Origin: Bdellovibrio sp. GT3
Lineage (GTDB): Bacteria > Bdellovibrionota > Bdellovibrionia > Bdellovibrionales > Bdellovibrionaceae
Direction: 5' to 3'
Assembly (NCBI RefSeq): GCF_037996765.1
Contig: NZ_JBBNAD010000001.1
Coordinates: forward strand, 124,001 to 188,000
Length of the DNA stretch: 64,000 bases
The notes below the pieces were generated by a model. That model saw only the letters and a list, made by a program, of their open reading frames with translations, had not been told where the DNA came from and did no database searches. This document shows, one piece after another, positions 1 to 13,323 of this stretch (position 1 is its first letter; each line of letters starts with the position of its first letter). Position numbers and translations under genes: made by a program.

Positions 1-483
1 CATCGAATTTTCGTATTTAACGTCACGCCAGCACGCAGTGGTGGGATTCCGTCATTGGTTGCGAATCTGTCGGTCTTTGATGGCGTTGCGGGACACGAGG
101 ACTGCAAGCCGTCGGATATAGTTTATGACTCCGTCACCAATCGTGTTTACGCACTCCTTAGTGGAACCGGGGGAGTCGTAACCTTCCCTGATAGTGCTTC
201 CACGACGCCAACCACTGGCACTATGCAGTTTATTGGTGTGAACGAGCTGAATGCTTCGGTCTTTGATGTGCCTGGCGGCGGTCGTCGTTTGGCGATACGT
301 GCCTCCGATCGACTTTTGATCGGAACGATGGAAGGGGCCAATCAGGTATTTACAATTGATCTGAATGATAACCGGGTTTATGTCAGCGCGGTTCAGGTGC
401 CGATTGCCAGCATAGCCAGTTATGAATCAGGGCAGATCTTATTGATTAGCCGAAGTAAAGGAAAGGTCCTCAGAGCAAAATAG
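1..483 (+). CDS. Propeller-like protein, C-terminal part (5' end outside window)
   Basis: The reading frame is open from base 1, so only the C-terminal 160 residues are present. Two similar stretches, DSVTNRVYALL and DLNDNRVYVS, lie about 80 residues apart and look like blade strands of a beta-propeller, but I cannot name the family. The protein ends directly against the next gene, whose ATG follows the TAG, so it is the upstream member of a plus-strand operon with an outer-membrane protein and a VWA protein. Coding is secure because the frame is long and operon spacing is tight; the function is unknown. Confidence 0.6.
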   Translation, partial: HRIFVFNVTPARSGGIPSLVANLSVFDGVAGHEDCKPSDIVYDSVTNRVYALLSGTGGVVTFPDSASTTPTTGTMQFIGVNELNASVFDVPGGGRRLAIRASDRLLIGTMEGANQVFTIDLNDNRVYVSAVQVPIASIASYESGQILLISRSKGKVLRAK

Positions 484-1677
484 ATGAAACGGATTTTATT
501 AAGTCTAATGACGGCAACATGGATGTCTTTTTGCCTCGGTGAGCTGGCTGTAGCCAGCAGCTGGATCAACATCGACTTCATCAAAAAAAATGCAGTTCCC
601 GTTCGTCGTGTGACGGACGATGTGATTTTTTTACCTCGAAGCAACCGGGTGGGCGTCGGGGAGCTGGTCGTCATTTTGCGTGTGCAAGGGGATGATGTCG
701 AAGTAATCGCCCGTGGCAATGCAGAGACGGTTCAAAACAATGAACTCTTAGTGGTGATGGATGGCAAGTCGATCACGAAAATTCCAAAAGTCCGTGACCT
801 GGTTGTCAGTTTGTCAAAATTAAAGCCGGCTCCGGAGGATCCTTTTTTCCCGCAACCGCCGGACAATCCCATTGTTGAAAAAGCGGACCCCTATGAGCCT
901 GGATATATTGTTTTTGAAATGGGTTCCAATCAGGGGCATTTTGAAAGTCAGTCGCCGAATCAAGCCAACCAATACAAGATTTACGACTATAAATTCACCG
1001 AGATGCATTTTCTTTGGTATGTGGATATGTTCTGGCGTTATGGAATTGAATACCAAACTTCCAGTGCAAATATTCCCCTGCAGTCATATTACCGGGAGGA
1101 TCGACCTACTACCGCCGAGGAAACGCGAATGGCTTTGCACTATCGCCTGCTTCCTGTTTGGAAAGAATTGCGTCCGACTTTGAAGTTGATTTCACTTAGC
1201 AGCAAGTTTGATACAACCAATGAGGATGAGTATGTCGTTTCTTCCCAGGCCTCGGGCATGGGCTTGGGTGCGAATTTTCATTATCTGTTTTCAGATAATC
1301 TGTTTAAAACAAAAAAGGGATTTGGCTGGGCTTTCAATCGAGTTTACTTCGATATGAACTATTTCCCAAGTTATTCGGTCTCCGATGGCGAGGTGAGCCG
1401 CGGTTCCAGTTCCTCCGGAACATTGATGGAACTGAAGGTCGGGGCCACCGCTCTTTTCTATGTGCCGTTCATTCCCTGGCTGAAACGCTATTCTGTGGAT
1501 GTCAGCTATGGGATGTCGCAATCTCAAGTTACGTTTTCCGGAGATGTTAAGAATGCAACCGATGGGGCTTACGATATTCCTCCGGGACAGTCTTACAATG
1601 AAAGTCAGTCATACATTAAGATTATGCTGGGACTGCGCCTGGATGATTTTATCAGCAATATAATGAAGTCGAGATGA
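484..1677 (+). CDS. Predicted outer-membrane beta-barrel protein
   Basis: A 397-residue protein with a signal peptide ending near AVASS. A short SH3-like beta region rich in Val and Arg follows (about 35-115), then a Pro-rich linker (LKPAPEDPFFPQPPDNP). The rest alternates polar and aromatic residues (YRLLPVW, FNRVYFDMNYFP, YSVDVSYGM), as in transmembrane beta-strands. The last bases overlap the start of the VWA gene by four, implying translational coupling. I do not recognise a named family. A combined periplasmic-domain and outer-membrane-barrel role is inferred from the composition. Confidence 0.7.
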   Translation: MKRILLSLMTATWMSFCLGELAVASSWINIDFIKKNAVPVRRVTDDVIFLPRSNRVGVGELVVILRVQGDDVEVIARGNAETVQNNELLVVMDGKSITKIPKVRDLVVSLSKLKPAPEDPFFPQPPDNPIVEKADPYEPGYIVFEMGSNQGHFESQSPNQANQYKIYDYKFTEMHFLWYVDMFWRYGIEYQTSSANIPLQSYYREDRPTTAEETRMALHYRLLPVWKELRPTLKLISLSSKFDTTNEDEYVVSSQASGMGLGANFHYLFSDNLFKTKKGFGWAFNRVYFDMNYFPSYSVSDGEVSRGSSSSGTLMELKVGATALFYVPFIPWLKRYSVDVSYGMSQSQVTFSGDVKNATDGAYDIPPGQSYNESQSYIKIMLGLRLDDFISNIMKSR

Positions 1678-3035
1678 TATTGAAGACGATTCTATCTTTT
1701 TATTTAGCAGTGTTTTTCAGCTTGGATGCTGTGGCGTCAGAGGCCTTGGATAAACTTGATTTCAACCCGGTCAATGTACCCGTGACAGAGCAAGGCACTG
1801 CCGACCTTAGTGAGTTGGAAAACCATCCCACACCATTGGTAGAGTACATCATCGACAGCTCAGGTTCGATGGGACAGATTCTGACGGGCAAACAAACCAA
1901 AATATTTGTGATGAAGAAGCTCCTGTCCCGATACTTGGTGTCCCAATGGACCGAAAAAACCTCCAGTGGAATGAGAGTGATCGGCTCCCGGCGCAAAAAA
2001 GATTGTAAGGACAACTACCTTGCCATTCCACCGGGAAATTCCAAGTTGGGTCTGATTGAGGGCACCGTGAAGGGCATGGATGCCGTTGGCATGACACCAC
2101 TTTATGACTCGATGAAAGCCGCCTACCAGGACTTGGAAAAATATGATGGTCCGAAGCGGATTGTTATTTTCACCGATGGAGAGGAAACATGTGGTAAAGA
2201 CCCATGTCAGCTTGCCAGAGAATTCAAAAACAAGAATGTCGATGTGAAGTTCTTTGTGGTTGCTTTCGGTCTTCAGGGACAGGAGGACACTCTGAAGAAG
2301 CTGCAGTGTATCGGCGACATGCACCAGGCGGACAATGAAGATCAACTGGATGAACTATTTCAGGAACTGGACAAGAATTTAAATCCCAACAAGAACCTTT
2401 TTGTGGATAGTCCGGAACCTCAGGCTACGGTGATGCTGTTTCGGGCGGAAACTCCCAATGAAATCTATCGTCGCTTTCAGTCTTCCTACGGGATTCAGGT
2501 TCCTCCGGGTCGGTACTATGCCATTGTGAATCTGAAGCCCAAATACAGGTTTCAAGAGTTCGTGGTGCCACCAAATAAAAAGGTCACCTTGAAAGTAAAA
2601 GGCGAAGGACAATTCACCGCGAATTTTATCGATGGTCTTATGAAAGTTGAGCTTTTGAATAAGAATAGAAAAGTGGTCAAGCGATTCAACAGTGACACGA
2701 CCGTCGGATTGCCACCTGGAAAATGGAGTCTGCGTTTTTATCGAGATCCATTTTATGAAAAGATCATCAATGACTACCTGATCGTTCCAAATGGAAAGTA
2801 CGAGATAAATCTTGAAGAAGCGGGAGTTGCTTATGTTCAGGATCCCCTGGTGCGGGGTATTTATGTCTTTGGTAACCGAGGAGTCATGACGGGAAATCAT
2901 GTTACGAACTTTCCGTTGGTCCTGGGTAAAGGGGTCTACGAGATTCGGGTGGATGACAAATGCGTATTTAAGGATGTTATCATGGGTTCAAATAAAGAAG
3001 TCGTGAAGCTTCAATGTCCGAAAGATAAGAAGTAA
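1674..3035 (+). CDS. Secreted von Willebrand factor A domain protein
   Basis: 453 residues with an N-terminal signal peptide (hydrophobic 3-20, cut near AVAS). The VWA fold is clear. The metal-ion-dependent adhesion site DSSGSMG is at about residues 61-67, the conserved Thr sits in GMTPLYDSM, and the Asp is in IVIFTDGEETCG. Two Cys in the TDGEETCGKDPC segment and one in QCIGD may form disulfides, fitting an envelope location. The C-terminal half (about 240-453) is beta-rich with PPGRYYAIV and PPGKWSLRF repeats, resembling carbohydrate-binding or PEGA-like beta-sandwich repeats. It overlaps the upstream barrel gene and probably works with it at the cell surface or in the periplasm. Confidence 0.8.
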   Translation: MILKTILSFYLAVFFSLDAVASEALDKLDFNPVNVPVTEQGTADLSELENHPTPLVEYIIDSSGSMGQILTGKQTKIFVMKKLLSRYLVSQWTEKTSSGMRVIGSRRKKDCKDNYLAIPPGNSKLGLIEGTVKGMDAVGMTPLYDSMKAAYQDLEKYDGPKRIVIFTDGEETCGKDPCQLAREFKNKNVDVKFFVVAFGLQGQEDTLKKLQCIGDMHQADNEDQLDELFQELDKNLNPNKNLFVDSPEPQATVMLFRAETPNEIYRRFQSSYGIQVPPGRYYAIVNLKPKYRFQEFVVPPNKKVTLKVKGEGQFTANFIDGLMKVELLNKNRKVVKRFNSDTTVGLPPGKWSLRFYRDPFYEKIINDYLIVPNGKYEINLEEAGVAYVQDPLVRGIYVFGNRGVMTGNHVTNFPLVLGKGVYEIRVDDKCVFKDVIMGSNKEVVKLQCPKDKK

Positions 3036-3038
3036 AAA

Positions 3039-4271
3039 ATGAACAAAATAAAAAAACTTCCGCTGCTTATTAAAATTCCAATTGGGCTTGCACTATTTCT
3101 CTCGTTGATGCTGCTGTTCGTGACCGTGTTTGAAAATCTGCCGCCAAGTGCCGGCACACCGTTGCAGTGTCAGGTCAGGTATTCCGGAGCGCTGAAAGTC
3201 GGCGATCAGCCAATGGGATTGCTCACGCATATGTATCGCAATAGTGACGGACAGTTTGCCGTTGCTGGATTGAATAAAAACGGGGATGCCTGGCTGGTCG
3301 GAAAAATGGGATTCGCAGCCGACTACCAACCTTATTGGGAGTTGGACGGCCGGAATGCAAGTTCACTAAAGAACTCAGGCGATGCGAACTTTGAGCTTGC
3401 GGCAACCAGCGGAGAGTGGGCGTTCGTGCGTAATGGCTTGGGCCAGGTGGTGGCCGTCAATGTAGTGAAGAACAAGGTTTTGGAGAAATCCAATCTTGGA
3501 CTATGCACAGGAACTTGGGGTGATGATGTCCGTATTCAACGGGTGAATCGTGACAATATCGTACTTACCAACTCCAAAGGTCAGGTTGGCTTCTATGATT
3601 TACGCCACTTGACGGACTATATTCCCAAGGAAGTGGGGCGTTCTCCGGATTTACTTATGGTGGTGGATCCTGACAGTGCTCTCGCTGTCGGACAATGTGC
3701 TCAACTCAGTGAAAACCGCAATGCCCGGATGAGGGTGGATGAAGGGTTGATGGGATTCACTTCCGGGATGAACGGAACTTTGAACCTGTACCGGGTTGCG
3801 CCAGATAAAATCGAGCTGAAACCGGTCACGTTGTCGGTGCCGAAAGAAGGCGGTTCTGATTTTGTCATCAGCAAGCAGGGTGTGTTTGGAGTCAAGGTGA
3901 GTGGACTCTTGGATCGCACTGAACAATGGAAGCAATACAAGTTGGCGGACCTTGAAAACAACCGAAAAGATCCCGCGTTTTTTATGACGGCGGAGCCTCT
4001 GGGCTTTCGCAGTGACTATGCTTTGGATGAGTCAAAAAATGGTTCCGGATATTGGATTGCAGAACGCTTTAAAAGTTACTACTTTTTTGACCGCTTCTTA
4101 CTGACTCATGTTAATGGCGAAGGCGTGAAACAAAGCTACGAGATAGATGATCGACTTTTGAAAGAATCTTTATCAAAGCAGCAGGCGTGGGTGGTGTTGC
4201 CCGGAGAAAGACATTTGGTGGCGGCAAACCTGGAAAACGGAGCTGGATACTCCGTCATTGAGTGCAAGTAA
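3039..4271 (+). CDS. Membrane-anchored protein of unknown function
   Basis: 410 residues with a single N-terminal transmembrane helix (about 9-31) after Lys-rich MNKIKK, so the bulk should be periplasmic. The remainder is beta-rich with repeated short strand and turn patterns (GFYDLRHLTDY, TLNLYRVAPDKIEL), which suggests a propeller-like fold, but no family signature is recognised. Cysteines at both ends of the periplasmic domain (LQCQVRY and the C-terminal VIECK) could pair. It starts four bases after the VWA gene and is the last gene of the operon that begins before the window. Confidence 0.65.
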   Translation: MNKIKKLPLLIKIPIGLALFLSLMLLFVTVFENLPPSAGTPLQCQVRYSGALKVGDQPMGLLTHMYRNSDGQFAVAGLNKNGDAWLVGKMGFAADYQPYWELDGRNASSLKNSGDANFELAATSGEWAFVRNGLGQVVAVNVVKNKVLEKSNLGLCTGTWGDDVRIQRVNRDNIVLTNSKGQVGFYDLRHLTDYIPKEVGRSPDLLMVVDPDSALAVGQCAQLSENRNARMRVDEGLMGFTSGMNGTLNLYRVAPDKIELKPVTLSVPKEGGSDFVISKQGVFGVKVSGLLDRTEQWKQYKLADLENNRKDPAFFMTAEPLGFRSDYALDESKNGSGYWIAERFKSYYFFDRFLLTHVNGEGVKQSYEIDDRLLKESLSKQQAWVVLPGERHLVAANLENGAGYSVIECK

Positions 4272-4873: not shown

Positions 4874-5677
4874 ATGAACTTTGCGGGACTACTTGGATTG
4901 ATTGCTGCTGTTGGTATTTCAGCATTTGCAATTATGGACAGTGCAAAGAATCCAAAGATATTTGCAGACCCACACGGTATCGCACTGGTTATCGGTGGTA
5001 CCATCACTGTCGCTTTGATGAGCTTTAACTTTAAAAGCTTGTGGAGCGCCCTTAAAATTGTCACGCGCAAGTACTTCGGGCGCGAGCGTGCAATTAACTA
5101 TAATGAAACCATTGAAAGAATCGTGACCCTGTCTGAAGCCTACCGTAAAGAGGCAAAATCCATTCAAGGAATGATGAAGCCCAGTGATCATCCATTTTTG
5201 AAGGATGGCGTGAACTTTCTGGTCGATTATGGCTTCAATTATGAAGAGCTGGACGAAATCATGCACAATGCGGTTCGCGGTAAGAAGAAGCGTGACGGTG
5301 ATGAGATCAAAGTATGGCAGACGATCTCCCGCTTTCCACCGGCGTTCGGTTTGTTGGGTGCGACTTTGGGTATGATCTCCTTGTTGCAAACTCTCGGAGA
5401 GCCTGGTGCCCAGGATCGTATCGGTCCGGCGATGGCAACGGCCCTGGTGGCGACTTTCTATGGTCTTTTGACAGCGAATCTTATTTTAATTCCGATTGCA
5501 GAAAAGCTTTCCAGTGTTTCTCAGGCCGATTTGACTTTGCGTGAGATTATCAAGGAAGGTGTTCTGCTGATTCATGAAAAGAAACATCCCATGTTTATTC
5601 GTGAATACCTGAAGTCCTTCCTGCCACCGCAACAAAGACAAGAGGGCGAAGCAGGGACTGTGAAAAAGGTGGCCTAG
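4874..5677 (+). CDS. motA: Flagellar stator protein MotA (PomA type)
   Basis: 267 residues, the usual length for a MotA/PomA stator subunit. There are four membrane helices: two at the N-terminus (GLLGLIAAVGISAFAIM; GIALVIGGTITVALMSF) and two near 155-205 (PAFGLLGATLGMISLL; ALVATFYGLLTANLILIPIA). The long cytoplasmic loop between helices 2 and 3 carries the charged residues (R/K/E-rich, AVRGKKKRDGDEIK) that in the family contact FliG. A strong GGAGG precedes the ATG. The motB start follows the stop codon directly. With MotB it forms the ion-conducting stator of a rotary motor in the inner membrane. Which rotor it drives, flagellar or the FliG-like chimera encoded 4 kb downstream, cannot be told from sequence. 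Confidence 0.93.
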   Translation: MNFAGLLGLIAAVGISAFAIMDSAKNPKIFADPHGIALVIGGTITVALMSFNFKSLWSALKIVTRKYFGRERAINYNETIERIVTLSEAYRKEAKSIQGMMKPSDHPFLKDGVNFLVDYGFNYEELDEIMHNAVRGKKKRDGDEIKVWQTISRFPPAFGLLGATLGMISLLQTLGEPGAQDRIGPAMATALVATFYGLLTANLILIPIAEKLSSVSQADLTLREIIKEGVLLIHEKKHPMFIREYLKSFLPPQQRQEGEAGTVKKVA

Positions 5678-6625
5678 ATGGGAGCACGCAAAAACAAGCA
5701 TCGTCGCCACTCGGATGACGATCATGAACATGCAGTACATCACGACGAATCCAACTGGCTGGTCAGCTATGCGGATATGATGACCCTGTTATTCGGGTTC
5801 TTTGTTTTGATGTATTCATTGTCACGGTTCGATAACACACGGTTTGATTTGGTTCGTAAAGAGGTGGCCAAGTACTTTGGTGGTAATATCAAGGAAATCA
5901 GCGCCATTTTGGAAGCCGAACAGAAGCTGAAAACAGCCCTTTTGGGCTCTGGTGAAATGAAAGGTGTTGAGATTTCAAAAGGATCAGACAACACCCTGCA
6001 ACTTAAGTTCGAAGGCAATGTCCTGTTTGAATCCGGAGCGACCGAGTTGAAAGAGGCGGCTAAACCGTCCTTACGCCAGGTTGTGGCGGCGTTGAGATCC
6101 GTTCCAAGCGTCGAGAAAATCAGCGTTGAAGGCCACACCGATGCAGATCCAATGCAAAACACGGTGATCAGATCCAATTGGGAGTTATCGGCCTTGCGTG
6201 CAAGCTCGGTTGTCAGATATTTCGAGGAAAGTGGTTTGAGTTCCAACGTTCTTGCTGCAGTGGGCTTTGGTTCCTCGCACCCGATTGCTGCTGAAAAGGA
6301 TGCTCAAGGGCATTCATTGGAGACCGGAAAAGCCGCAAATCGTCGCGTGGTTGTTCAGGTGAAACTGCTGGATCCGGAAGAAGCGTACCGTTTGCAGCAG
6401 CAGCAGTTTAAAAAGCAACTCAACAAAGAAGAGATCGAGCGCCAGAAGAAAGAGAACGAACTTCAGGACAAAATGAAGTTGGCGAAAGCTCGCTTTGATG
6501 AGGCACAGCGCAAGTATCGCGAGCAATCGGAACAAAAACGCAAAGAGCAGCAGCTGCAAAAACTGGAAAAACAAATCCAGGCCTTGGAAAACAAGACCAA
6601 GCAGTACGAGGAAAAAGCTCAGTAA
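5678..6625 (+). CDS. motB: Flagellar stator protein MotB with long C-terminal coiled coil
   Basis: 315 residues. A His/Asp-rich cytoplasmic N-terminus precedes one helix (SYADMMTLLFGFFVLMYSLS) containing the essential proton- or sodium-binding Asp33 in the SYADMM motif. The OmpA/MotB peptidoglycan-binding domain spans about 105-230, with VEGHTDADP, NWELSALRASSV and NRRVVVQV. After this domain there is an unusual Gln/Lys/Glu-rich coiled coil of about 80 residues (240-315), longer than the tail of textbook MotB proteins. The start directly abuts motA. The gene converges on the next barrel gene and overlaps its 3' end by seven bases. Confidence 0.92.
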   Translation: MGARKNKHRRHSDDDHEHAVHHDESNWLVSYADMMTLLFGFFVLMYSLSRFDNTRFDLVRKEVAKYFGGNIKEISAILEAEQKLKTALLGSGEMKGVEISKGSDNTLQLKFEGNVLFESGATELKEAAKPSLRQVVAALRSVPSVEKISVEGHTDADPMQNTVIRSNWELSALRASSVVRYFEESGLSSNVLAAVGFGSSHPIAAEKDAQGHSLETGKAANRRVVVQVKLLDPEEAYRLQQQQFKKQLNKEEIERQKKENELQDKMKLAKARFDEAQRKYREQSEQKRKEQQLQKLEKQIQALENKTKQYEEKAQ

Positions 6626-7233
6626 TAAGAAGTCGAAAAGACAAATGAGGCTCCAAATCCCGAATACTTGACTGACAGGTCATTCGAGGCTGAGGAGCCC
6701 TCTCTCATTGAAAGCTCAAAAGACAGTAAAGTGTTTGGCTTCAACGGATACTCAAATCCCGCCCCCAATATAAATTCGTAGACCAGGGCACTGAATGAGA
6801 AGGATTGATTCGGATCCGACTTATCAAGCTTATTCAGATTGAAGTTAACCGGAGTGAAGCTGGCAAAAGTGTACAGTCCAGGCCGGGACTTCTGAAGCAG
6901 GACTTCATCGGGACTGATTTCGTAAACTGATGATAACCCCTGAAAGTAGTAGTAGCCGCTGAGCCCGATTCCAGAAATTGGAGTCGCACCGTATTTGCTA
7001 TTAATATCCAGAATATAGTGGACCCCCAGGCGCGAGTTCATCGATGGCACATCCCAAAGAAGCGTGGGCTGAATGGTCATCATCGAGCCTAATGTTTCGT
7101 CTTTCACCAGTTCGCCGGCAGTGACGGTCGTATTGAACATGGAAAGCTTTGCTCTGAGCATGGGAGCTTGAATTCCCGCTTGCGAAACAATGCCGAACAG
7201 TAAGATTAGGACCAAGGTGAAGAATGGTTTCAT
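6619..7233 (-). CDS. Predicted outer-membrane beta-barrel protein
   Basis: 204 residues with a signal peptide (MKPFFTLVLILLFGIVSQAG). The mature part shows alternating strands (LGVHYILDI, GIGLSGYYYF, FSALVYEFILGAGFEY) and ends in an aromatic residue after VFSTSY, typical of an outer-membrane beta-barrel C-terminal strand. It resembles in style the barrel encoded at 8191, also about 195 residues, so the two flank the lipoprotein gene. It lies between motB and the chimera operon but on the opposite strand, sharing an intergenic region with the lipoprotein gene. Function is unknown. Confidence 0.7.
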   Translation of the reverse strand: MKPFFTLVLILLFGIVSQAGIQAPMLRAKLSMFNTTVTAGELVKDETLGSMMTIQPTLLWDVPSMNSRLGVHYILDINSKYGATPISGIGLSGYYYFQGLSSVYEISPDEVLLQKSRPGLYTFASFTPVNFNLNKLDKSDPNQSFSFSALVYEFILGAGFEYPLKPNTLLSFELSMREGSSASNDLSVKYSGFGASFVFSTSYY

Positions 7234-7318
7234 AGAATATGTTTTTTTCCTCTCTGCTTAGGAGAATGAAATCTGTGGGCCACTTCGTCTAATTTCGCAT
7301 GTCATGGAGGATATGGAA

Positions 7319-8194
7319 ATGTTTCTGAGACAACTTAAAATGTTGTTCCTTATTCTGTTGCCGGCATTTATTTCTGCCTGCGCCGGAAAGTATTCCATTA
7401 AATCCTATCCTCAGGGTTCAAAGATTTACATCAAGGATATACAAACCAACGAAAAAAAACTACTGGGAATTTCTCCGCTGAATATTCAGGAGGAATCGAA
7501 GCTCGGTGATGTTTTCTTTTTGATATTTGAAAAGCAGAACTATCGCACTAAAGAAGTGATGGTGAAAGTGAATGAAGGCGAAAGTATCGCTGTGCAAGCT
7601 CGCCTGGATCCGTTGTCTGACGAGGAAAAGAAAGCGGAAGAACTGGCTAAGAATGATGAAAAGAAACAGGATCAACCTCCTAAGCCTGAAGATAAAAAAG
7701 ATAAAAAGATGGATGACCTGCTGGCAGAGCTGGCTGAACTGAAGTTGCGAGTGGCTCTTTTGGAAAACACTTCCTCCTTTTATAAGGATGCATTGTTTTC
7801 GCCGCGGTTATCGGGAGGAATGCCAACCCAGGATCGTGATCGCAGTGAGAAAGTCGTCGGACTTATTTTTCAAGGTCAAAAAGCGATCATGAAGGGTGAC
7901 TATCAAAAAGCGTTGTTGGAAGTGGATAAGGCAATCACGATGGACGAATACTCCAACAATGCCTGGTTGCTTAAAGGTTCCATCAAATATTTGCAGAAGG
8001 ATTTCCAGGGCGCGAAGGTGGCTTGGGAGCGTTGTCTGAAAATTGATCCATATAATAAAGTCGCTTATCAATACCTGTCTGATGTTTATAAACGTCTTGG
8101 CATGGAGCCGTTGCCAAAAAGTGGTTCGGAGATGAGATATCCAGCTTCAAATGTTGAGATCGAAAAGCGAAACAGAGAAACACAGGTAAGATGA
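7319..8194 (+). CDS. PEGA/TPR outer-membrane lipoprotein
   Basis: The open frame extends to an ATG at 7304, but those bases form the ribosome binding site (GGAGG at 7306-7310), which places the start at ATG 7319. The product is then 291 residues with a lipoprotein signal and lipobox ISAC. A PEGA-like domain (GSKIYIKDI, LLGISPLNI) follows, then a Lys/Glu/Pro-rich linker, a short coiled coil (MDDLLAELAELKLRVALLE), and at least two TPR-like repeats near the C-terminus (GDYQKALLEVDKAI; KDFQGAKVAWERCLKIDP). Such proteins usually bridge outer membrane or peptidoglycan and a partner complex. It is the first gene of a four-gene operon ending in the FliF/FliG-like chimera. Confidence 0.8.
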   Translation: MFLRQLKMLFLILLPAFISACAGKYSIKSYPQGSKIYIKDIQTNEKKLLGISPLNIQEESKLGDVFFLIFEKQNYRTKEVMVKVNEGESIAVQARLDPLSDEEKKAEELAKNDEKKQDQPPKPEDKKDKKMDDLLAELAELKLRVALLENTSSFYKDALFSPRLSGGMPTQDRDRSEKVVGLIFQGQKAIMKGDYQKALLEVDKAITMDEYSNNAWLLKGSIKYLQKDFQGAKVAWERCLKIDPYNKVAYQYLSDVYKRLGMEPLPKSGSEMRYPASNVEIEKRNRETQVR

Positions 8195-8778
8195 TGTTGA
8201 AACTGTGGGGGATTCTGCTGGTACTTTTCATATCGAGTCCATCCTGGGCGTATCTGACGTCTGATTGGGATGTAAGTATGGGGCTGACCAGCTTACAATA
8301 TGATTTCGCGCGTTTGGAGAGTGCCAAATCGCTGGAATCCTCCACCACGTTGGAAGTGAATTACAGTTTGAATAATCCTTCCATCAATACCGCGATGACT
8401 TTGTCCTTCATGGAAATCACTGAGGCGGCAGGCTTGCAAATGCCATTCACTCGAATTGCCGTGGGTGCCAGATACTATGTTCTTGGTGTTAATGGCATGC
8501 GAACTGTATTGGACAGCAGGACTCAAGCAAAAGTTTGGCGATCCACTCCCTTTGTTGCGATGAACTTCGGTCTCAGTAATCTGGCTGTTGATAAGCTGAA
8601 TGCTTCCTTACTTGATGTCAGTTTGCGGGGTGGTGTGGAAATTCCGATGATGTCCAATTTGCTCCTGGTGGGGCAAGTGTCTGTGGGAACCAGCTTAACC
8701 AGCTCCAGTGATGAAGACAGTGTGAGTTATCAATTTATGAATCTTTTCGCCGGCCTGCGCTTTGTTGGCTTTGAGTAA
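8191..8778 (+). CDS. Predicted outer-membrane beta-barrel protein of the chimera operon
   Basis: 195 residues with a signal peptide (MMLKLWGILLVLFISSPSWA). The mature protein is made of alternating strands (SMGLTSLQYDF, TLEVNYSLNN, IAVGARYYVLG, FAGLRFVGF) and ends on a Phe-Glu pair after FVG, as expected for a small eight-stranded barrel. Its ATG overlaps the stop of the lipoprotein gene by four bases, so the two are probably co-translated. It would supply the outer-membrane part of whatever envelope complex this operon builds. No specific family is recognised. Confidence 0.72.
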   Translation: MMLKLWGILLVLFISSPSWAYLTSDWDVSMGLTSLQYDFARLESAKSLESSTTLEVNYSLNNPSINTAMTLSFMEITEAAGLQMPFTRIAVGARYYVLGVNGMRTVLDSRTQAKVWRSTPFVAMNFGLSNLAVDKLNASLLDVSLRGGVEIPMMSNLLLVGQVSVGTSLTSSSDEDSVSYQFMNLFAGLRFVGFE

Positions 8779-8780
8779 TT

Positions 8781-9764
8781 ATGAATAAAGCAAAAGTTTT
8801 AGTATCTGGAATTGTTTTGACTGGTCTTGCTGGAATTGGTGGCTACTACTTAAACAAAGCACGGACATCCTCAAAAACGGGCGTGGTTCACCACGATGGG
8901 ATGGAGATTTTTAAAGCGGCACAGTTGAATGCAGGAATGCAGTTGAAAACGCACATGGACTCTCCTGTGGGAATAGCCTGGAAAGCAAATGACTTTGCAA
9001 AGCTGAGTTCCATGTTTGGTTTACAGAAGTCTGTCGCGGAAAACGCATCGTTCTTTCAAGCCAGCATTTATGTTCTTGATGTGACCAAGATGGACTGGAA
9101 ACCCGATGAAAAGAAAGCGTTGCAGGAACTGCAGTCTTCTATTGCTGAATACATAATGGCGAAACGGGAACGACCGGCATTGGGACCGGAAGCCCAGGCA
9201 TTAAGCTATGCCTCCAAGGTGCTTTTGAAGTTTGATTCCCTGCCAGAAGCAGTCGTGAAGAAGATGTCCGACTACTACTCGGTGGCAACATCTGAGGGTT
9301 TGCGAAATCAGCGTGATATCGTTGGGGAAACCTTGATGCGTATCAGCCCCTTGCCTGAAAAGGGACTTAAGATCATCCGCGAAAAATTGAGATCCAAGAA
9401 TGACCCCTATCAGGGAATTGTATTGATTGGACAGATGCGGGACGCTCAGGCCGCGGCAGGACTATGGAACGAAGTGGCTGTCGGCTTCGAATCCTTTCCT
9501 TCACGGTTTCAGCCCATGATTTTCAAACAACTGGTGATACGTCACTCTATAATCAAATCAGATATCAGCGGTCATCTTCATCAGCTTTTGAAGTATTCCG
9601 GTCAGGTGGAGGAAGCTGATGATGCATTTCTTGTCGGAGTTCGGGAACTGAATATGACAGACAAGTATCGCTCGGAAATTCAACGTATATCCAATCAGAC
9701 CCGTTATGCCGCGACAAAAACATTGGCGGTTTCGTTATTGAATAGTTCAGGAGGCGCGAAATGA
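8781..9764 (+). CDS. Inner-membrane-anchored periplasmic protein, unknown
   Basis: 327 residues. One N-terminal helix (VLVSGIVLTGLAGIGGYYL) after MNKAK predicts an anchored protein with a periplasmic body. The body is almost entirely helical with no Cys and no low-complexity stretch (EKKALQELQSSIAEYIMAKR; AAGLWNEVAVGFESF). It could be an alpha-solenoid similar to HEAT or TPR proteins, but no repeat consensus is clear. It begins two bases after the barrel gene and its stop overlaps the chimera gene's ATG, so it belongs to the same operon and is a candidate linker between outer and inner membrane parts. Confidence 0.65.
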   Translation: MNKAKVLVSGIVLTGLAGIGGYYLNKARTSSKTGVVHHDGMEIFKAAQLNAGMQLKTHMDSPVGIAWKANDFAKLSSMFGLQKSVAENASFFQASIYVLDVTKMDWKPDEKKALQELQSSIAEYIMAKRERPALGPEAQALSYASKVLLKFDSLPEAVVKKMSDYYSVATSEGLRNQRDIVGETLMRISPLPEKGLKIIREKLRSKNDPYQGIVLIGQMRDAQAAAGLWNEVAVGFESFPSRFQPMIFKQLVIRHSIIKSDISGHLHQLLKYSGQVEEADDAFLVGVRELNMTDKYRSEIQRISNQTRYAATKTLAVSLLNSSGGAK

Positions 9765-11518
9765 GGCACGTTATTTTAGTACTCTCGGTTGTTCTGGCTT
9801 CATGGGGAGCGCAGGCTCAGTACATCGAGGAAATCGGGTCACTGGAAAATCTGTATGAAATCAGAGCCAGATCTGTATTGAATACGATCCTGCGTCCAAC
9901 GGAATACACGGTGGTGGTATCTGTGGATTTGGATCGTGATGAACAAAAGCTTAAGGAGTTTCATAAAGAGGCGGAATTGCAGTATCTGCCGGGAATGCCC
10001 ATGATGGGTGATGTTCCGGTGGCTCCGATGGCGGCCAATAAACTTCATGAAATGAAGGCAAAAACTGAAATCAGTGTGGTCTTGTCACGCAATGTATCCC
10101 CTGAAGTGGAAAAAGTGATTCGGGATTTGCTGGTTTCCAAATTGCATTTGGATTCGGCTGTCGGGGATTCGGTGGCCATTCGCCGTATCGAATTACCTTT
10201 GGATCCGAAGGTCGAGGAACCACCAAAGCAACTTCCAGAGCTTACTTGGAAAACGTGGGTGCTGGTGGTGATTCTTTCGTTGCTGGCCCTTGCGGGATTG
10301 ATGTTCGGTTTGTGGAAAAGAAAAACCGCTGATCCGAAAAAAGAGATCAACGAAAATCACGAATATGCCCACCAGGAACCTTTGCCACAGGCGGAAAAGG
10401 AACCTGTTACAGCAACTCCAGAACCTTCGGCGGACGTGGTGCCGGCGGCGGTTTCGGCCAAGCCAGATGAAATGGTCTGGGAGCTTGGTTTGGACAGTGT
10501 TCGTCAGCACGTCATTCAGATTGGAACACAATATCCTCAAATGGCGTCGCGTGCGATCGCCGAGTATTGTCTTGAGGGGGCTGTTGAAAACACCACTTAT
10601 CTGATGGACTTTATGGGATGGGATACAGCAAAGCATTTGTTTGCAGAAATCCCCGCGATGGCCTGGGCGCGAATGGGACGTTCGGTGAAAGAGCGAAAAG
10701 CTGATCCGACGGCAGTACAAATCGAGACCGGTGTGCGGGAAACCTATCGGGCTTTGCTGGGCAGTTACATTGAACATGAAATGGCTGAAGATGAAGCGGG
10801 ACCATTCAACTTTATCCTGAAGCTTCGCGAGGACCAGCGTTCACAAATCCTGGAAAAGGAAAGCGCCAAGAACATCGCCATCCTGTGCCTGCATGCTCCT
10901 TCCGAAGTGACGGCTGGAATTCTGGCCAGCATTGATAGCGAGAAAAAAGTCAGAGTCATGGGAGAGCTTTCCCGAATAGAAAAAATTCCGCATGATGTTT
11001 TGCAGTCAGTGATTCAGGCGTTTAAGCAGCGTGTGAGCGAAACTCGACTGAAGCCGGAACCCAAAGTACATGGTGCCACTGTTCTTGCAAAAGTTATCCG
11101 TGGCATGAGTCCGGAAGAAGAAGTGAACATGTTGACCATGTTCGCAGCTGAAAATCCCGAAGAGCTGGAGAGAGTGCGTCGATCGATCTTAATATTTGAT
11201 GACGTGTCCCTGGTGCCTCAGGACATTCTTGCTGAAGTCCTTGGACTTTATGAAGTGGAAGCACTTTATGGAGCCTTCTTCCGCACACAGCGAGCGCTGA
11301 TGGTCGCAGCCCTCAATGCGCTTCCAGAGAAAAAATCAATGATCCTGGAACGCGAATTGAGCGATATGCCAATGATTCCGTCCCAGAAACTTTCAGCTGA
11401 AACTCGCCGAAGCATCTGTCAGCGAGTTGAGACGGTTTTGGAATATCGTTCGATCAGCATGACCGATCTTATTGATGGAGCTGTGAAAGTTACCAAGATT
11501 CGCGCAAATGAAGGCTGA
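9761..11518 (+). CDS. FliF-like/FliG-like chimeric inner-membrane protein
   Basis: 585 residues. A signal peptide (1-20) is followed by a periplasmic segment that resembles the last ring domain of FliF. It has the pattern YEIRARSVLNTILRPTEYTV, then VSVDLDRDEQK, and further on IRDLLVSKLHLD..GDSVAIR, which matches the FliF C-terminal periplasmic pattern. One helix (about 166-187) leads to a Pro/Glu-rich linker. The cytoplasmic part (about 240-585) is helical and matches FliG middle and C-terminal domains: PSEVTAGILASIDSEKKVRVM, ATVLAKVIRGMSPEEEVNML, RRSILIFDDVSLVPQDIL and LYGAFFRTQRALMVAALNALPEKKSMILERELSDM. By eye the torque-helix charges are only partly kept. The gene closes a four-gene operon 3 kb downstream of motAB. 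The family call is by eye and no search was run. Confidence 0.75.
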   Translation: MRHVILVLSVVLASWGAQAQYIEEIGSLENLYEIRARSVLNTILRPTEYTVVVSVDLDRDEQKLKEFHKEAELQYLPGMPMMGDVPVAPMAANKLHEMKAKTEISVVLSRNVSPEVEKVIRDLLVSKLHLDSAVGDSVAIRRIELPLDPKVEEPPKQLPELTWKTWVLVVILSLLALAGLMFGLWKRKTADPKKEINENHEYAHQEPLPQAEKEPVTATPEPSADVVPAAVSAKPDEMVWELGLDSVRQHVIQIGTQYPQMASRAIAEYCLEGAVENTTYLMDFMGWDTAKHLFAEIPAMAWARMGRSVKERKADPTAVQIETGVRETYRALLGSYIEHEMAEDEAGPFNFILKLREDQRSQILEKESAKNIAILCLHAPSEVTAGILASIDSEKKVRVMGELSRIEKIPHDVLQSVIQAFKQRVSETRLKPEPKVHGATVLAKVIRGMSPEEEVNMLTMFAAENPEELERVRRSILIFDDVSLVPQDILAEVLGLYEVEALYGAFFRTQRALMVAALNALPEKKSMILERELSDMPMIPSQKLSAETRRSICQRVETVLEYRSISMTDLIDGAVKVTKIRANEG

Positions 11519-13256
11519 CAAATGTGATGTCATCGGGTTGTTCGATTCCAGTGGTGAAATCGGCAATCCGTTTGGCAATTTGGTCGTGAATACCTCGTTG
11601 TGAGCCTTTCGTGGATGCATCCGCGGCAAGTTTAAACACAGTTCTCTCTGCGAAGGCCTCGCCCTTTTCATTAATTGCATCGGTCAGACCATCTGTATAC
11701 GCAAACAGAGTTTGTCCTGTTTTGAAGTCCACAGAAGCCTCTTCATATGCCGATGATTTTTCGTGCCCCAGCCTTTTTCCATTCACATCTCCTAAAAGAG
11801 TGATATCGGACTTTTTCACCTTCCGACCTTCTTCGGTCAGCGGCAGAAGAAGGGGAGGTTCGTGGCTGGCATTTGCATAAGTCAGCTTTCCGCTTTTCAA
11901 ATCCAAGGTGGCGGCAAAAGCGGTCATCATTTTTTCACCTTTGGCGACGTCACAAAGAACCTGATTGATTCGGGTCAGGGTTTTACCCGGGCTCCAGACT
12001 CCTTCTTCAACTGTCAGGGAAAGGATGGAGCGAGTGGCTGCGGTGATAAGAGCCGCGGGAACACCGTGGCCGGTGGCATCTCCGATGAAAACAAAGATCT
12101 TGTCTTCAGTGCAGTTGTGAAACCAAAGATCACCTCCGCATTCGGAGGCGGGATGATAGTAACCTTTGAGTGAGTACGCATCCGTTTCGACCTTCATTTT
12201 GGGTAGCAGTGTGGTTTGGACTTCCTTGGCCGTCTCCAGCTCGGCTTGCATGCGAGCTTTTTCCTGTGTCTGCTGAAGAAGGCCCTCAATTTTGCCCTGC
12301 ATGGAATTGAACACCTTTGCCATCTGTCCGATTTCGTCATTGTTGGCAATTTTCAAAGGTTTTGCAGATCCGTTCTTGGAAAACTCATTCATGGCATTGT
12401 TTAAGCGCAGCAGATTTTGGGTCAGGCTGTCGATCGATATGAATACGGCAATCAACCCGATCAGCAAAATGATGAAGCTGGCGAGCAGCGTTTTATTCAT
12501 GATTGAATCAAGTACCGAGAAAATGCTCTTCTTATCAAAGACCTCGAAAACGAAAACATCCAGATAGGGGAGCTTCTTAAAAGAGATAAGATGTGGTTTC
12601 CCGTCAATTTCAATGTCTTTCACGCCGCTGCTATTTTGTTGAAAAATACTTTTAATGCTTGGGGTGACGCCGCTTAATTCGGCCTCCATGGAAGCGGGGA
12701 ACCACCATTGTCCGACTTTTTCATTGTAAAATCCGGCCTCGTTGCGTGCCTGAAGATTCTTAAAAAAGGGGAAGGTTAAGTTCGCATAAACCCGGAATAC
12801 CCCCTGGCGAAATAGCACGCGCAGTTTGTTGGGGGACTGCACATCGCTTTCCACAATCATCTCGTTCTCGGTTAAAGCGGCCAGTCGATTAGAGACACTT
12901 TCCGGGGTGGAAATATGTGTTCCGAGAGCGTCCATTAGACGCAGTGGGAAACCATCTTGTTGGATGAAAATGGCAATATCACCCCAATTTTGGGTTGTCG
13001 CCAAAGCTTTCACCTGGGCAGGGAACTGCTGTGTGGAGGCATCAAAAAGTTGAAGTGCGGAACGAACCCGGTCAAAACTTGTTTGGAAATCCTGATTAAA
13101 AGTTTGGCTGAATCCGTCAACTCTCTCGAGGGCATTGGCGTAGACGTAGGATCTTTTATCAGAGAGAAAAGTCTCGCGATTTAGAAAGAAGATCGTGCCC
13201 GAAGAGACGATCAAAAGAATAGAAACGATCAAAAGAAATTTAACTTTTAAAGACAT
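11490..13256 (-). CDS. Membrane sensor phosphatase: extracytoplasmic domain, HAMP, SpoIIE/PP2C
   Basis: 588 residues from the ATG at 13256, which has GGAGA six bases upstream; an upstream TTG at 13277 is less likely. Two membrane helices (residues about 5-24 and 250-275) flank a periplasmic cache-like sensor domain of about 225 residues. A HAMP linker follows (LNNAMNEFSKNG to GQMAKVFNSM), then a short coiled coil, then a SpoIIE/RsbU-type PP2C serine phosphatase. The phosphatase shows SECGGDLW, FIGDATGHGVPAAL, ANASHEPPLL and YTDGLTDAIN, which supply the metal-binding Asp residues. Such enzymes dephosphorylate anti-sigma-factor antagonists. No antagonist or anti-sigma gene lies next to it. Its 3' end overlaps the convergent chimera gene by 29 bases. 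Confidence 0.9.
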   Translation of the reverse strand: MSLKVKFLLIVSILLIVSSGTIFFLNRETFLSDKRSYVYANALERVDGFSQTFNQDFQTSFDRVRSALQLFDASTQQFPAQVKALATTQNWGDIAIFIQQDGFPLRLMDALGTHISTPESVSNRLAALTENEMIVESDVQSPNKLRVLFRQGVFRVYANLTFPFFKNLQARNEAGFYNEKVGQWWFPASMEAELSGVTPSIKSIFQQNSSGVKDIEIDGKPHLISFKKLPYLDVFVFEVFDKKSIFSVLDSIMNKTLLASFIILLIGLIAVFISIDSLTQNLLRLNNAMNEFSKNGSAKPLKIANNDEIGQMAKVFNSMQGKIEGLLQQTQEKARMQAELETAKEVQTTLLPKMKVETDAYSLKGYYHPASECGGDLWFHNCTEDKIFVFIGDATGHGVPAALITAATRSILSLTVEEGVWSPGKTLTRINQVLCDVAKGEKMMTAFAATLDLKSGKLTYANASHEPPLLLPLTEEGRKVKKSDITLLGDVNGKRLGHEKSSAYEEASVDFKTGQTLFAYTDGLTDAINEKGEAFAERTVFKLAADASTKGSQRGIHDQIAKRIADFTTGIEQPDDITFVSLHLRESW

Positions 13257-13323
13257 CCAGATTCTCCGCAGGTTCAAATAGGGAACCTTGCAAAGCCATC
13301 ATGAAAGATCATTGTTCTTTTGC

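Follow-up and report, generated by a model that had tools for sequence, protein, structure and literature searches.

What kind of machine would be formed by a protein that carries relatives of two flagellar rotor parts, FliF and FliG, in one chain and that is encoded close to a MotA/MotB stator pair and to genes for envelope proteins? The question is raised by a 64,000-nucleotide stretch of the genome of Bdellovibrio sp. GT3 (contig NZ_JBBNAD010000001.1, positions 124,001 to 188,000; hereafter the window), in which the last of four overlapping plus-strand genes encodes a FliF/FliG chimera of 585 residues. As analysed below, the operon and motAB belong to a module that is kept even in relatives in which FliF, FlhA and flagellin were not found, and we consider it probable that they form an ion-driven, non-flagellar rotor of the envelope. 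A preceding reading of the letters alone (the sequence-only reading) knew of no published description of such a chimera, and we found none in the literature on Bdellovibrio with FliG, FliF or MotA and with the inferred HD100 locus tags, within a scope that left out most subscription papers and preprints.

The chimera and its stator pair

The cytoplasmic part of the chimera is related to FliG. With single-sequence Pfam hidden Markov models, the chimera matches FliG_M (2.6e-7) and FliG_C (1.4e-5) above the cut-offs and FliG_N (4.6e-5) just under it, and its closest solved relative by sequence is the FliG of Thermotoga (3.3e-8). In the profile-profile comparison with FliG, a profile of 42 chimeras gives E 1.6e-18 over profile columns 14-334, with 0.23 for the reversed control, the match spanning nearly the full length of FliG (N, M and C), and a profile of the B-type chimeras alone, a divergent type described below, gives E 3.5e-9. 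In the predicted structure, with a mean predicted local distance difference test score (pLDDT) of 76.7, residues 272-570 match FliG 8wiw with Z 14.0. The FliG-like domain claimed in the sequence-only reading is thus well supported.

For the periplasmic part the relation is one of predicted fold. The FliF models of Pfam had no match to the chimera in the single-sequence search; in the predicted structure, residues 14-146 match RBM3 of the FliF S-ring 8z5v with Z 12.8 and a root-mean-square deviation (rmsd) of 2.3 A over 101 residues, the unrelated OsmC-fold rows of the same comparison having Z 9.7 and below. For the B-type chimera of genome G122 the predicted structure gives Z 11.5 versus FliF RBM3 and Z 12.0 versus FliG. 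The other periplasmic parts of FliF, namely RBM1, RBM2 and the first membrane helix (TM1), are missing, the signal region being followed directly by the RBM3-like domain and then by one internal membrane helix. Moreover, the chimera uses 133 residues where FliF has about 198, and thus the region in the place of the FliF collar is short. As read from its sequence and its predicted structure, the chimera is composed of RBM3, a membrane helix and a complete FliG.

At the positions that touch other motor parts, the A-type chimeras, the type found in the window, have mostly kept the two MotA-contacting charges of FliG and have lost the FliM-binding motif. This was seen in an alignment of 15 A-type chimeras with true FliGs of the class and the FliG of Escherichia coli. 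The EHPQ motif is present in 12/12 true FliGs, while HPQ is lost in 15/15 chimeras, with E kept in all. In FliG, Arg281 and Asp289 are described as contacting Glu98 and Arg90 of MotA (PMC7564593). The R281 position is K or R in 13/15 A-type chimeras (K in the window protein) and the D289 position is D or E in 15/15; the other FliG charges are altered, most often to R or S at D288, to F or Y at K264 and to S, Q or T at R297. On the stator side, 42 of the 46 module MotAs have R (39) or K (3) at the Arg90 position. The charges assigned by eye beforehand (kept at the R281 and D289 equivalents, changed at those of K264, D288 and R297) agree with this alignment.

Upstream of the operon lie the genes of MotA and MotB (4874-6625), with their start at a distance of 2.4 kb and their end at 0.7 kb. 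The sequence-only reading had put them 3 kb upstream, a distance that has to be corrected; the link to the operon that it drew is borne out by conserved neighbourhood and co-occurrence. The module MotA matches the NCBIfam PomA model with 1.6e-44 (below the model's cut-off) versus 9.6e-6 for TolQ, and MotB has kept the SYADMM motif, with the plug and the OmpA domain. Note also that MotB matches ZorB profiles (1.9e-19), whereas the PADLOC ZorA profiles had no match to the module MotA at 0.01, and the identity with Zorya was rejected for this reason. A tree of 61 MotAs has a branch that sets the 46 module MotAs, without exception, apart from the flagellar MotAs; the 13 A-type MotAs in the tree form a clade with support 100/100. 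By position, we take the module MotA of genome G004 to be MotA2 (Bd3021) of B. bacteriovorus; matches to Bd0149/Bd0150 were dropped as unrelated by position.

Recurrence of the module in relatives

It is noted that the genome set consists of species representatives and that the profile searches covered the window's own phylum. In relatives a set recurs that comprises motAB, a reverse-strand barrel-like gene, the PEGA/TPR lipoprotein, a barrel-like protein, an anchored protein and the chimera. The A-type chimera is present in 16 of the 144 genomes of the class, and orthologues of the module MotA (at least 322 bits, plus one of 91% identity that is truncated where its contig ends) are present in exactly the same 16, the next-best MotA having 222 bits. 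The same 16 of 144 genomes hold the 2063-residue lipoprotein encoded upstream, apart from three weak partial matches elsewhere. Within the window's genus, the chimera, MotA and this lipoprotein are all present in 9 of the 24 genomes and all absent in the other 15, and thus ancestry alone is insufficient to explain the co-occurrence. Many flagellated relatives are without the A-type module, and where the A-type chimera is present MotA is always present alongside it; the link with MotA drawn in the sequence-only reading is hence upheld.

A divergent second type of chimera, the B-type, is only about 15% identical to the A-type and has members across the class. Its usual neighbours are a PEGA/TPR gene, the gene of a barrel-like protein of 224 residues and a MotA-MotB pair of its own, which in some genomes lies about 25 kb from the chimera or on another contig. 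Comparison of the A and B profiles gives E 6.6e-23 for the chimera, 6.7e-28 for the PEGA/TPR lipoprotein and 1.3e-7 for the barrel-like proteins, versus 0.06 to 0.8 for unrelated pairs, which shows that the same parts are present in both module types. In a further type, the D-type, the genes for MotA, MotB, the PEGA/TPR protein, a chimera-like protein and a barrel-like protein are consecutive in one genome and dispersed over about 8 kb in another, and further chimera matches lie in other classes of the phylum. In the divergent subfamilies A, B and D, profile comparison thus recovers a common module, made up of the chimera, MotA, MotB, a PEGA/TPR lipoprotein and a small barrel-like protein. A contig scan with one short pattern gave matches only in six named metagenome-assembled genomes of Bdellovibrionota, which does not imply absence elsewhere.

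The module is kept in relatives without the flagellum. The genomes G120 (97% complete) and G122 (99%) have the B-type chimera and MotA, and FliF, FlhA and flagellin were not found in either by the same searches that are positive in flagellated genomes. This strengthens the non-flagellar reading, and with it the suggestion, made from the sequence beforehand, of a second, probably non-flagellar machine.

Other chimera-like proteins were also seen. Those of types C and D, with 576-668 residues, are also divergent (L143:3544-5550, L146:4518-6275, L147:13578-15308) and have MotAB, PEGA/TPR and barrel-like genes nearby, with one genome, G008, holding three D-type clusters (L146, L207, L208). Chimera-like frames of about 660-710 residues lie beside MotA at L205:4893-6986, L206:5936-7915 and L209:5886-8015, the last belonging to another class of the phylum, and many further chimera-like frames of 630-850 residues are among the profile matches. 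A GYF_2-like protein of about 440-475 residues lies repeatedly by B-type motAB (L050:12301-13683, L144:5122-6546, L145:5390-6712, L153:8473-9807). In L212-L217 (G122, G120 and G101), the stretch between the B-type chimera and motAB holds, besides the giant proteins treated below, exported proteins that are conserved (about 350 and 280-375 residues) and a large protein (about 800-1300 residues).

The wider gene cluster

The features of the cluster in the window are collected in Table 1. The four co-directional genes lie as the sequence-only reading had them. Its description of gene 1 as an outer-membrane lipoprotein with PEGA and TPR parts holds for TPR, which is over the Pfam cut-off, and less firmly for PEGA, which is under it (15.7 versus 20.8 bits); the lipobox is ISAC. 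Gene 2 has no match in the Pfam scan, and its assignment as a barrel comes from a signal peptide and from profile similarity to a family with one weak OMP_b-brl member. Gene 3 has a single N-terminal hydrophobic helix and was assigned no family in the Pfam scan. The reverse-strand barrel-like protein of 204 residues gives hhalign E 1.2e-14 versus the gene 2 family and 6.6e-6 versus the D-type barrel. Membrane topology and lipoboxes are from simple calculations, and the barrel assignments are from weak homology. Homology, fold, the conserved neighbourhood and co-occurrence all lend support to the envelope-spanning composition that had been proposed for the operon.

Table 1. Features of the chimera-motAB cluster in the window (positions in the window)
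Feature	Position	Strand	Basis or remark
C-terminal end of 2063-residue lipoprotein	1..483	+	whole gene G000:C1:118292-124483 (own genome)
Exported protein, 397 residues, kept in A-type clusters	484..1677	+	conserved neighbourhood
Exported von Willebrand A (VWA) protein, kept in A-type clusters	1674..3035	+	Pfam VWA 2.2e-7
Protein of 410 residues with N-terminal anchor, recognised only in close relatives	3039..4271	+	
Module MotA, PomA-like	4874..5677	+	in exactly the 16 class genomes with A-type chimera
MotB: plug/membrane segment (motif SYADMM) and OmpA peptidoglycan-binding domain	5678..6625	+	
Barrel-like outer-membrane protein, 204 residues, kept in module, related to gene 2	6619..7233	-	hhalign
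Gene 1: putative outer-membrane lipoprotein with PEGA and TPR	7304..8194	+	ATG at 7319 is a possible alternative start
Gene 2: small barrel-like outer-membrane protein, 195 residues	8191..8778	+	hhalign 1.3e-7 versus B-type 224-residue protein
Gene 3: periplasmic protein, N-terminally anchored, 327 residues, fast evolving	8781..9764	+	recognised only in genus
Gene 4: FliF/FliG chimera (predicted rotor protein), 585 residues	9761..11518	+	
Chimera, periplasmic FliF RBM3-like ring domain, residues 15-146	9803..10198	+	Z 12.8, rmsd 2.3 A versus 8z5v
Chimera, membrane helix, residues 166-184	10256..10312	+	
Chimera, cytoplasmic FliG-like region, residues 244-570	10490..11470	+	
Position of FliG EHPQ (FliM-binding) motif, ESAK in chimera	10859..10870	+	
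Chimera, torque-helix charges K524 (R281 of E. coli FliG), R531 (D288), E532 (D289)	11330..11356	+	
RsbU-type phosphatase gene, convergent with chimera	11490..13277	-	adjoins chimera in many relatives

Three giant exported proteins open the cluster, which begins about 16 kb before the first letter of the window. In the window's own genome there is one plus-strand run (G000:C1:108347-135518), interrupted by two opposite-strand genes, that includes the giants (1566, 1750 and 2063 residues, the first two outside the window), the 397-residue exported, VWA and 410-residue proteins, motAB and the operon, and the gene order is the same in genome G004. Giants 1 and 2 have FN3 and FG-GAP repeats, giant 1 matching integrin alpha propellers with 1.9e-7; a search for solved structural relatives of the 2063-residue giant gave none, and a lipobox is seen by pattern in two of the three. 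The B-type clusters likewise adjoin giants with FN3 or FG-GAP repeats. Because of the FN3, FG-GAP and VWA domains, an adhesive or surface-motility role of the cluster is suggested. Beside the giants, in both genomes, lies a protein of about 1000 residues with an N-terminal helix (G000:C1:105073-108069 on the minus strand and G004:C1:2941437-2944439 on the plus strand, 38% identical).

Downstream, the RsbU-type gene adjoins the chimera in nearly all close relatives, and RsbU-like genes also lie beside many B- and D-type clusters. The phosphatase is a possible regulator of the module. The Rfam search of the window gave no match and the PHROGs search nothing relevant.

A putative envelope rotor and its alternatives

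We propose a model in which the operon and motAB form the rotor as follows. The chimera would form a ring from one protein, with the RBM3-like domain oligomerising in the periplasm, the single helix crossing the inner membrane and the fused FliG part facing the MotA pentamer. Since RBM3, membrane helix and FliG are in one chain, FliF-FliG docking, FliM/FliN and the export gate would not be needed. The peptidoglycan-anchored MotAB would push the FliG part and thus turn the ring, and the torque or displacement would pass via the periplasm to the PEGA/TPR lipoprotein and the barrel-like proteins. The force would then reach the giant exported proteins, with their FN3 repeats and FG-GAP/integrin-like propellers, and the VWA protein, so that surface adhesins would be moved, presented or tensioned for contact with a surface or prey. 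What we infer is that the chimera forms a ring, that the ring turns, that force takes this path and that the role is adhesive; the explanation in its entirety, from MotAB to the adhesins, seems to us fairly probable. The action on the surface lipoproteins, taken by itself, is held more tentatively. Equally tentative is the extension to a phylum-wide class, in which a one-protein FliF-FliG ring turned by MotAB would be coupled via a lipoprotein/barrel complex to giant integrin-like lipoproteins.

Several points weigh against the proposed rotor. The FliF relation is significant by fold, as predicted, and not by sequence alone, since hhalign of the periplasmic part versus FliF gives only E 0.005 with a probability of 7%; of the FliF-type last-ring segment claimed in the sequence-only reading, it is thus the fold that stands. 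The predicted template modelling score (pTM) of the chimera model is 0.33, making the relative placement of the domains unreliable, and the ring, its rotation and its contact with MotA are predicted from sequence and models. The branch between the module and the flagellar MotAs has a modest support of 83/70, and the MotA Glu98 position has no clear alignment in the 46 module MotAs. Most module genomes are also flagellated, and a study of 2011 reportedly found a modest contribution to swimming from every one of the three B. bacteriovorus motAB pairs. Moreover, with four Agl/Glt gliding clusters already present in B. bacteriovorus (PMC12546842), gliding could do without the module.

An alternative is that MotAB works like TolQR, ExbBD or AglRQS as an energy transducer without rotation, which pulls or pushes through the periplasm, the chimera being a static docking ring or scaffold. 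In its favour, the equivalents of K264, D288 and R297 are lost, the Glu98 equivalent of MotA is unclear, the region in the place of the FliF collar is short, and the outer-membrane partners recall couplers of the Tol-Pal type. We regard this explanation as unlikely, however, because FliG is kept in full, with its torque domain, despite great divergence, because both of the main charges for MotA contact are retained along with MotA Arg90, and because MotA is PomA-like, not TolQ-like. Somewhat less likely still is that the chimera and MotAB serve the polar flagellum as an auxiliary ring, an alternative rotor, or a stator reservoir or brake. With this the flagellated state of most module genomes would be consistent, as would the mild slowing of swimming that motAB deletions are said to cause (the same 2011 study). 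The strong changes in motA2/motB2 expression in fliL mutants (PMC11323537) point the same way, but that 2024 study found FliL-Bd1076 to bind MotB3 and detected no interaction of it with MotA2 or MotB2. It also speaks against a flagellar accessory that the module is present in G120 and G122, where FliF, FlhA and flagellin were not found, that the FliM motif is lost, that its partners in the cluster include outer-membrane proteins and giant exported ones, and that many flagellated relatives have no A-type.

It could be argued too that the torque aids the export or folding of the giant lipoproteins, as GldLM energises the type IX system, since giant lipoproteins adjoin both A- and B-type chimeras, one is co-inherited with the A-type, and the partners are barrel-like. 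This we consider very improbable: the barrel-like proteins of about 200 residues are presumably too small as a translocon for such cargo, the giants bear ordinary Sec/lipoprotein signals, and no type IX homologue is seen in the Pfam or NCBIfam scans.

Comparison with known systems also bears on the proposed rotor. With the flagellar rotor and stator the module shares a FliG homologue, the FliF RBM3 fold (as predicted), a PomA-like MotA and an OmpA-type MotB; it differs in that FliF and FliG are one chain cut to the last ring domain, the FliM motif is gone, outer-membrane partners stand in place of rod and hook, and it is kept without a flagellum. To our knowledge, no FliG-based rotor has been described outside the flagellum. 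A ring protein in frame with FliG is also found in the artificial FliF-FliG fusions of Vibrio and Salmonella, which assemble rings (PMC11481574, PMC6079021), and thus the architecture of the chimera is physically workable; those fusions are engineered, full-length and placed inside flagella, whereas the chimera is natural and has its own MotAB. The AglRQS-Glt gliding machinery of Myxococcus, with clusters also in Bdellovibrio, resembles the module in that an ion-driven inner-membrane motor is tied to outer-membrane or surface proteins, but Agl motors are of the TolQR class (PMC12505986), while the module motor is of the MotAB class with a FliG-type rotor and its MotA matches the PomA/MotA models far better than TolQ. 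GldLM/type IX of Bacteroidota is alike as a 5:2 motor tied to lipoproteins and large surface adhesins, with the type IX difference given above. A counterpart of FliG or FliF is not known there. In Zorya, a phage defence, ZorAB is likewise a MotAB relative used outside the flagellum; the partners in the module are instead envelope proteins and a FliG-type rotor. The motor parts are homologous to flagellar ones, and it is the machine proposed to be formed from them that would be new in kind.

A FliG-type rotor without FliF, export gate and flagellin would show the flagellar motor detached and reused, in parallel to the export apparatus of the flagellum, which is reused in the injectisome. As a minimal natural rotor, with one ring protein and MotAB, it would allow the study of torque without switch or export machinery. 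A Bdellovibrio stator pair now listed as flagellar (MotAB2, as we take it by position) would be reassigned. Finally, a 2026 review (PMC13104615) names the gliding motor of Bdellovibrio, its adhesins and the way in which force is transmitted as a major open challenge, and the module would supply concrete candidates for the parts with which predatory bacteria move on surfaces and prey or hold on to them.

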